A DNA stretch of 64,000 bases from Pseudoxanthomonas sacheonensis (lineage in GTDB: Bacteria > Pseudomonadota > Gammaproteobacteria > Xanthomonadales > Xanthomonadaceae), in contig NZ_PDWS01000015.1 of the NCBI RefSeq assembly GCF_010093305.1, forward strand, positions 1 through 64,000. Direction: 5' to 3'. Of the stretch, positions 41,910 through 42,374 are shown piece by piece. The notes beneath the pieces were generated by a model, which saw only the letters and a list, made by a program, of their open reading frames with translations, was not told where the DNA came from and ran no database searches. Positions within the stretch are counted from its first letter, which is position 1. Each line of letters opens with the position of its first letter. The position numbers and the translations under genes were made by a program.

Positions 41910-41999
41910 GGAGAGGTGGCAGAGTGGTCGAATGTACCTGACTCGAAATCAGGCGTACGTGTAAGCGTACCGAGGGTTCGAATCCCTCCCTCTCCGCCA
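41910..41999 (+). tRNA. tRNA-Ser(CGA)
   Basis: A 90-base class II tRNA with acceptor GGAGAGG / CCTCTCC, anticodon loop CTCGAAA (anticodon CGA), a long variable arm and encoded CCA. Its last bases are repeated downstream in the tandem array. Confidence 0.96.
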
Positions 42000-42374
42000 G
42001 ATATGCAAAGGCCCCCGCAAGGGGGCTTTTGCATATCTGGCGGAGAGGGAGCAGTTTGAGGAGAAGCCCGTTCGACAGAACGGCAGGATTGCCGTTCTGC
42101 ACGGCGCAGCCGCCCCGAAGGGGTGAGGCACATGGATGTGCCGAATGCATCCCTCCCTCTCCGCCAGGCATACCAAAGGCCCCCGCAAGGGGGCTTTTGC
42201 GTATCTGGCGGAGAGGGAGCAGTTTGAGGAGAGGCCTGTTCGACAGAACGGCAGGATTGCCGTTCTGCACGGCGCAGCCGCCCGAAGGGGTGAGGCACAT
42301 GAATGTGCCGAATGCATCCCTCCCTCTCCGCCAGATGCGCAAGGCCCCCGGAAGAGGGTTTTGCATGTGGCGGC
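41984..42374 (+). repeat. Tandem 167-bp repeat seeded by the tRNA-Ser 3' end
   Basis: Two full units (41984-42150 and 42151-42317) and a partial third (42318 to about 42374). Each unit opens with the last 16 bases of the tRNA gene (CCCTCCCTCTCCGCCA), followed by a terminator hairpin. Next comes an inverted copy of the tRNA end, then about 100 bases containing CAGAACGGCA-GGAT-TGCCGTTCTG and GCACAT..ATGTGC palindromes. The first two units differ at roughly ten positions by eye. In unit 1, bases 41986-42051 form one long stem of about 31 pairs, centred on the terminator loop. The layout recalls the E. coli tyrT/rtT repeats. Confidence 0.92.
42007..42030 (+). terminator. Terminator hairpin inside repeat unit 1
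   Basis: AAAGGCCCCC, GCAA loop, GGGGGCTTTT. It terminates tRNA-Ser and is repeated at about 42174-42198 in unit 2 and in weaker form in the partial unit 3. The arms extend outward into the tRNA 3' end and its inverted copy. Confidence 0.8.

Follow-up and report, generated by a model that had tools for sequence, protein, structure and literature searches.

The window analysed here, 64,000 nucleotides of Pseudoxanthomonas sacheonensis DNA, contains a tRNA-Ser(CGA) gene on the + strand (41910-41999) that runs directly into a tandem array. ARAGORN and Tandem Repeats Finder agree with the preliminary description, which had placed about 2.3 copies of a 167-bp unit behind this tRNA; the latter program reports an array at 41982-42366 with a period of 168, 2.3 copies, 91% matches and a score of 643. 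Two full units of 167 bp each (41984-42150 and 42151-42317) are 95% identical to one another, and a remnant is matched over 42318-42366 at 88%. Each unit starts with the tRNA-Ser end, CCCTCCCTCTCCGCCA, as had been described, and the exact direct repeat comprises 18 nt, ATCCCTCCCTCTCCGCCA, present in three copies (41982-41999, 42149-42166 and 42316-42333). A hairpin and an inverted copy of the tRNA end had been ascribed to every unit; in both full units the GC-rich hairpin is indeed followed by a 14-nt inverted copy, TGGCGGAGAGGGAG (42038-42051 and 42206-42219), whereas in the remnant this copy has decayed. A full unit is ordered as GC hairpin and inverted tRNA end, then GTTCGA, several consecutive hairpins and the last 18 nt of the tRNA with CCA.

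41910-41999, + strand: tRNA-Ser(CGA) with encoded CCA (ARAGORN; Rfam tRNA model, 60.4 bits); the seed copy is formed by its final 18 nt (41982-41999)
42000-42037, + strand: GC-rich hairpin adjoining the tRNA, arms GATATGC..GCATATC, TTTT past the GC stem (sequence, folds)
42029-42166, + strand: RtT-type unit 1 as matched by model R2, 47.7 bits
42038-42051, + strand: inverted (antisense) tRNA-Ser 3' end of unit 1 (14-nt exact inverted word)
42076-42147, + strand: multi-hairpin core of unit 1, between GTTCGA and the ATCCC of the extra tRNA end (R3 match, fold)
42149-42166, + strand: tRNA 3' end copy 2 including CCA, the end of unit 1 (exact repeat)
42167-42205, + strand: hairpin of unit 2 (sequence, fold)
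42197-42333, + strand: RtT-type unit 2 as matched by model R2, 44.4 bits
42206-42219, + strand: inverted tRNA-end copy of unit 2 (exact inverted word)
42244-42314, + strand: multi-hairpin core of unit 2 (R3 match)
42316-42333, + strand: tRNA 3' end copy 3 including CCA, the end of unit 2 (exact repeat)
42334-42372, + strand: hairpin of the third-unit remnant, which by eye resembles the plain trailer that follows the tRNA in unit-less relatives (sequence)

The four neighbouring genes examined match PP2C, DUF6165, Glyco_transf_9 and an RNase_T exonuclease. A duplication created during assembly is unlikely, because the array is enclosed within a contig of 100,591 bases and units 1 and 2 differ at several positions; nor is the array restricted to one assembly, being present in relatives. 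Two long minus-strand ORFs (41708-42409 and 41949-42317, of the GGEGGIRTLG and AEREGFEPSVR type) run antisense to the tRNA and the array; they resemble translated antisense tRNA-Ser and are probably not genes.

Relationship to the RtT repeats of E. coli

The tyrT/rtT repeats are mostly regarded as a peculiarity of a single E. coli locus. In E. coli K-12, the tyrT-tyrV region follows the plan GGGGAAGGAT (the inverted tRNA-Tyr end), GAGAA..GGTTCGAC, CCGCAGG and CCCGAAGGG hairpins, GAGTA and ATCCTTCCCCCACCACCA, with a repeat spacing of 178 bp; the single copy that intervenes between tyrT and tyrV ends in CCCGAAGGGTGAGGAGCGAAGCGACGAATAATCC, near the CCCCGAAGGGGTGAGGAGCGCAGCGACGAATGAATCC of one genus member (hereinafter G006). 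The small RNA annotated in E. coli, RttR, spans from the 8th nt past the CCA of tyrV to the following CCA, and a small protamine-like ORF (tpr) is annotated as well.

The array shares with RtT (RF00391, rttR) the tandem units behind a tRNA, each ending in the 18-19 nt of its 3' end, the inverted arm, GGTTCGA, a multi-hairpin core with CCCGAAGGG and the junction to ATCC, and the closing stem of the Rfam consensus resembles the predicted closure of 42000-42166. It differs in unit length (167 bp versus 178 bp), in its tRNA-Ser host, in the GC hairpin placed between tRNA and inverted arm, in an arm of 14 nt that runs through the complement of CCA, where the E. coli arm has 10 nt on the T-stem side, and in a core that has diverged beyond the reach of the Rfam model. 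Accordingly, the Rfam RtT model gives no match on 41000-43500 up to E 5, and a whole-genome search returned nothing on the array up to E 10 and two matches elsewhere with E above 4. The same model finds four copies in E. coli at 132.9-137.5 bits, passes its cut-off of 45 behind tRNA-Tyr in P. dokdonensis (47.2 and 46.9 bits) and scores 37.4 bits behind tRNA-Ser(GCT) and 28.9 bits behind a second tRNA-Ser gene of G006.

We built three further models on MAFFT alignments of uneven quality and with shortened calibration: R1 from Lysobacterales cores, those of the window included; R2 from two E. coli repeats and 25 RtT-type matches in Gammaproteobacteria families other than the window's; and R3 from the core only. 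R2 gives two strong matches in the window, which are the two units (47.7 bits, E 1.3e-10; 44.4 bits, E 8.3e-10), and its other four matches up to E 10 are tRNA 3' ends with at most 14.7 bits, a tRNA end alone being able to supply about 15 bits of R2 score. In the opposite direction, R1 ranks the four E. coli repeats top among locus L272 and three control loci, with modest E-values of 0.0014, 0.0031, 0.011 and 0.13. R3 finds two matches up to E 0.1 in the 4.04-Mb genome, both within the array (3.6e-5 and 2.7e-4); since genus members are among its sequences, R3 is not independent evidence.

Profile searches in both directions thus connect the window units with the E. coli repeats, as the preliminary description had proposed from their likeness; of the two origins it had left side by side, these cross-matches favour a diverged relative over an independent case. 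We class the window array as a diverged RtT repeat with an enlarged stem, in a family that is wider and stranger than its name implies. We put a probability of roughly 0.7 on the fuller reading of the array as a diverged tyrT/rtT-type tRNA-trailer repeat in which anatomy, processing and recombination form one explanation; of this, the layout of the units, their kinship with the family, the copying of the host tRNA by the arms and the differences in copy number are observed directly.

A second Rfam family, sX4 (RF02223), overlaps the locus, its model covering tRNA-Ser and the first hairpin (41898-42066) and leaving the core outside its span. The window scores 50.5 bits, below the cut-off of 70, and G006 scores 78 bits (L012:1413-1565). 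Our impression is that the score comes largely from the tRNA itself, and the family model may contain a tRNA-Ser gene.

Copy number in the genus and match to the host tRNA

Searching 38 genus genomes with the 167-bp unit, a search that had been suggested at the outset, we find the tRNA end and hairpin widely matched and at least 145 of the 167 bases matched in ten genomes (G000, G001, G003, G006, G010, G015, G022, G024, G029 and G036; 67% identity in G010), a unit-length match being absent from the other 28. The most similar unit among relatives (96%) belongs to Pseudoxanthomonas sp. CF125 (G029), in which the downstream DUF6165 gene region is 97.8% identical over 409 nt. At the corresponding site (L008) this strain has one unit and a remnant where the window has two and a remnant, so that copy number varies between relatives, the outcome that the initial comparison had been meant to look for. 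Counted by R2, L008 and L013 have one unit each, L010 and L014 two, and L009 two with a 15-bit remnant; the window thus stands at two full units, its nearest relative at one and the other inspected genus members at 0 to 2, with an additional, truncated third unit in P. wuyuanensis (G036). In unit-less relatives the tRNA, the hairpin and a DUF6165-type gene stand in direct succession, and by eye the window remnant resembles their plain trailer. G006 has a unit or truncated unit behind each of its four tRNA-Ser genes, the arms largely fitting their own tRNA.

A pattern search (tRNA-Ser end, inverted end, GTTCGACA) gave at least 119 stretches, of which at least four (L078, L103, L145 and L154) look like chance; Rhodanobacter, Dyella, Dokdonella, Lysobacter, Luteimonas, Ca. 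Thiodiazotropha, Aliidiomarina, Alloalcanivorax and others are among the matches listed. The pattern required CTCCGCCA and TGGCGGAG, and the shuffle test for copying of the host scored only letters beyond both. With 116 of at least 140 distinct tRNA-Ser loci used, 679 of 812 inverted-arm letters are complementary to the locus's own tRNA among the matches listed, against a shuffle mean of 587 and a maximum of 608 (2000 shuffles). Within the class the simple palindrome turns up sporadically, in 17 of 370 genomes including that of the window, two of which (G114 and G161) look like chance; the reversed control gave 0. In Dyella subtropica, a mismatch-free inverted copy of the last 12 nt lies within 130 nt after four of 50 tRNA calls, namely Ser(TGA, CGA, GCT) and Gln(CTG); Phe has one inverted copy with two mismatches and Ser(GGA) none. 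Two ARAGORN calls at L263 are dubious. Contigs labelled Rickettsia, Klebsiella or Rhizobium also carry a tRNA-Ser element (L084, L106, L126 and L168); these bins may be mislabelled. A 'tRNA-Gly' called by ARAGORN at L115 is the element read backwards, and a tRNA-like gene on the opposite strand was rejected as a general account, most members being without a 5' acceptor strand by eye.

Beyond serine tRNAs, the Rfam RtT model at E 0.01 matches 60 of 276 Gammaproteobacteria, 18 of them over the cut-off, and R2 at E 1e-4 matches 56 of 299 phylum genomes (the window's own 1, genus 1, family 2, class 27 and other classes 25); the out-of-class range is narrower than the last figure implies, because 22 of these 25 belong to one family. 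At 30 inspected R2 loci, the tRNA within 900 nt upstream is Ser in 13, Tyr in 6, Arg and Lys in 3 each, Asp and Gln in 2 each and Glu in 1, and the Gln, Tyr, Glu, Arg, Lys and Asp hosts rule out a Ser-only element. Compared with all other isotypes, the terminal copy best fits the host tRNA at 29 of 31 Rfam RtT loci and 26 of 30 R2 loci; the inverted arm does so at 23 of 31 and 17 of 30, failing at the remaining 13 R2 loci. The Rfam set derives from 40 fetched loci, of which 34 were used and 31 have an upstream tRNA (L299, L308 and L310 do not); L281, which is the L277 array, and five loci with E above 1 were left out.

In all 64 RtT-type units of these two sets the core is preceded by GTTCGA (56 units) or by a sequence one letter away from it, a presence that is partly selected because the search models include those letters, and GARTn-(A/G)TCC lies behind the core in 56 of the 64. 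The own-tRNA arms and the loop position argue that host-tRNA sequence is assembled about a shared core in each unit. Duplication nucleated by the tRNA end, as first suggested, is incomplete as an account: the repeated piece also holds a conserved folded core, which in the units takes the place of the T-loop in the additional tRNA end and which occurs outside tRNA arrays as well. The parts of the literature covered by our search, Rfam membership apart, mention RtT in no group other than Enterobacteria and Pasteurellaceae. Once the window array is placed with tyrT/rtT, and both with units that follow seven or more isotypes of tRNA across more than one class, an oddity becomes a family whose origin is testable.

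Occurrence of the core outside tRNA arrays

The core-only model R3 gave 45 matches, of which 30 loci were inspected. Cores lie in partial tRNA-Arg and tRNA-Lys copies (L332 and L345) and behind tRNA-Pro (L338). In two genera they stand at the D-loop point of broken tRNA-Ser copies (L299/L317 and L333); others lie within a larger inverted repeat (L341) and, at L335, in a palindrome loop between CCTGCGA and ACGCAGG. Genome G271 has an intact tRNA-Ser(GCT) preceded by a broken copy with interruptions in both the D-loop and the T-loop, and in G076 a 22-nt 5' end of tRNA-Ser(GGA) is followed by the core at the D-loop point, just 5' of the intact gene. Dyella subtropica, with the most dispersed copies among the genomes searched, has 39 R1 matches up to E 0.01; seven of them follow a tRNA-Ser or tRNA-Gln, and the remaining 32 lie elsewhere. 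Of 20 match regions fetched from two genomes of Dyella and one of Rhodanobacter, three follow tRNA-Gln(CTG), and no tRNA is present within the retrieved sequence of the other 17; these all begin after a REP-like CTGTG(C/G)GCGA, and 14 have the inverted partner behind. A Dyella genome with such filled REP doublets also has six core-less doublets and one with the first hairpin only. Same-family cores in Dyella sit between inverted GTAG-type REPs, as in a BIME or REPIN, whereas the window units are flanked by tRNA ends and have no REP. One study assigns enterobacterial rtT-like elements to BIMEs (PMC2965389), and another lists rttR among REP-containing small RNAs (PMC12306157).

The positions in D-loops, a palindrome loop and REP doublets suggest small loop-seeking insertions, and the core may be mobile. 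In this alternative, to which we give somewhat less than even odds, the core would be a short piece of mobile DNA that enters hairpin loops behind a GA; the arrays would represent T-loop entries in redundant tRNA ends, and any RNA-level function would be secondary. Its broader form, held equally tentatively, envisages phylum-wide mini-elements whose core of about 60-90 nt enters loops after GA (tRNA T- and D-loops, REP doublets, palindromes) and survives in tRNA genes only with a repairing tRNA-end copy, giving rtT arrays and CCA-ended passenger RNAs. The borders of the 64 units, GTTCGA-like ahead in all and GARTn-(A/G)TCC behind in 56, are consistent with such entry, with the caveat that GTTCGA belongs to the search models and is partly selected. 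GA precedes the stem start in 18 of 25 loci, a crude count in which the GA lies a few letters inside the core in 6 of the 18 and in which most sites are T-loops. Weighing against mobility, no filled/empty pair was found for any orthologous dispersed site, and one strict pattern retrieved no unoccupied palindrome in G271. Nor could any mobilising enzyme be linked with the core: genes for Y1 transposases are present in 8 of 9 genomes, but Dyella subtropica, which has the most dispersed copies, is the one without them. Constant spreading within genomes is disfavoured, because the nearest neighbour lies in the same genome for only 9 of 47 elements. If the core is mobile, tRNA loops would be a niche for a kind of element that we did not find described in the literature searched.

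Three side observations concern these genomes. Y1 transposase (PF01797) matches number eight in G000, six in G029 and 0 to 3 in the other seven genomes. G142 has a dispersed repeat of about 300 bp (L331, L334, L337, L340, L343 and L346) with an identical central core and identity declining outwards. L047 (G025) holds four tandem copies of about 70 bp of a core-like repeat, with no tRNA within the fetched 2 kb.

Predicted folding and processing of the transcript

In the tRNA-trailer reading that we prefer, a unit is an additional tRNA-Ser 3' end that holds the core in place of its T-loop and is preceded by an inverted tRNA end and a trailer hairpin. A transcript reading through past the first hairpin would carry several CCA ends, and cutting by tRNA 3'-processing enzymes at each CCA could release 167-nt RNAs (42000-42166 and 42167-42333), in each of which the inverted arm would pair with the tRNA end at the RNA's own terminus and so close the molecule. 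In uncut read-through RNA the arm would lie on the real tRNA end and keep the tRNA in an unusable fold, and additional copies could arise by recombination between identical tRNA ends.

Structure prediction, which had been called for at the start, closes 42000-42166 in this way, the inverted arm pairing with the unit's own terminal tRNA end (-105.6 kcal/mol for the whole), and the hairpin at 42000-42037 and the flanking tRNA ends are predicted to form a single long stem. In the predicted fold of the full transcript, the first inverted arm lies on the real tRNA end with 14.0 expected pairs, and pairing of the arm with the tRNA end or with the repeated end has the same predicted energy, -30.7 kcal/mol. 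The earlier claim that the arm competes with tRNA folding consequently stands as a thermodynamic prediction. We infer transcription and RNA release of the window units; published work has RtT released from tRNA operon transcripts and affecting the stringent response (PMC4986893) and mentions a tandem GA motif in RtT (PMC7657543). Read-through may be low, because a terminator-like hairpin, the GC hairpin with TTTT, precedes the inverted arm in the window, unlike in E. coli; a terminator scan requiring five T in eight left the + strand hairpin uncalled and on the - strand called unit 2's hairpin only. If RNA is released, many bacteria would make tRNA-derived, CCA-ended passengers that are invisible in annotation.

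Substitutions in the first core stem comprise 52 double changes and 0 one-sided ones, and the wobble pairs expected in an RNA helix are missing (one stem-A wobble count was a loop-base artefact and is excluded). The last core stem has 16 double and 9 one-sided changes, compared with 497 and 94 in the tRNA-Ser helices of 116 loci among the matches listed. The core may have a role at the DNA level. A CsrA/RsmA sponge, considered for window loops that include ACATGGATGT, was dropped because loop sequences vary among members, others having TTCG, GCAG or GNRA-like loops.

The equal predicted pairing energies, the predicted fold of the full transcript onto the tRNA end and the copying of the host tRNA by the arm are also what one would expect of a cis switch on tRNA-Ser supply, in which the arm picks either the tRNA end or the repeated end; we regard this as unlikely, the E. 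coli arm stopping short of CCA and 28 of the 38 genus members doing without a unit-length match.

Genomic islands at tRNA 3' ends also carry a direct repeat from T-loop to CCA, like the window units. The unit might on this basis be a minimal integrative cassette that entered the T-loop by site-specific recombination and, like tRNA islands, brought a tRNA-repairing 3' end; the 18-19-nt direct repeats spanning T-loop to CCA fit, as do six pattern loci without a full tRNA 5' of the palindrome (L072, L085, L096, L122, L153 and L167), which resemble island ends at a tRNA-Ser 3' end. A unit of 167 bp is too small to encode a recombinase, however, and has no cargo, no recombinase or integrase is found among the four neighbouring genes examined, and the D-loop and REP-doublet copies misfit, which makes a cassette more doubtful still. 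L122 and L167 have their left flanks in common. That the array is a functionless, independent tandem duplication of tRNA end and terminator without rtT kinship, as the failure of the Rfam RtT model to match it might suggest, is highly improbable in view of the R1 and R2 cross-matches and the layout shared across many genera and tRNAs.

Elsewhere in the window, a small SRP RNA gene (48987-49083, minus strand, 65.5 bits) lies directly after tRNA-Ser(GGA), and the same order is seen at L130.
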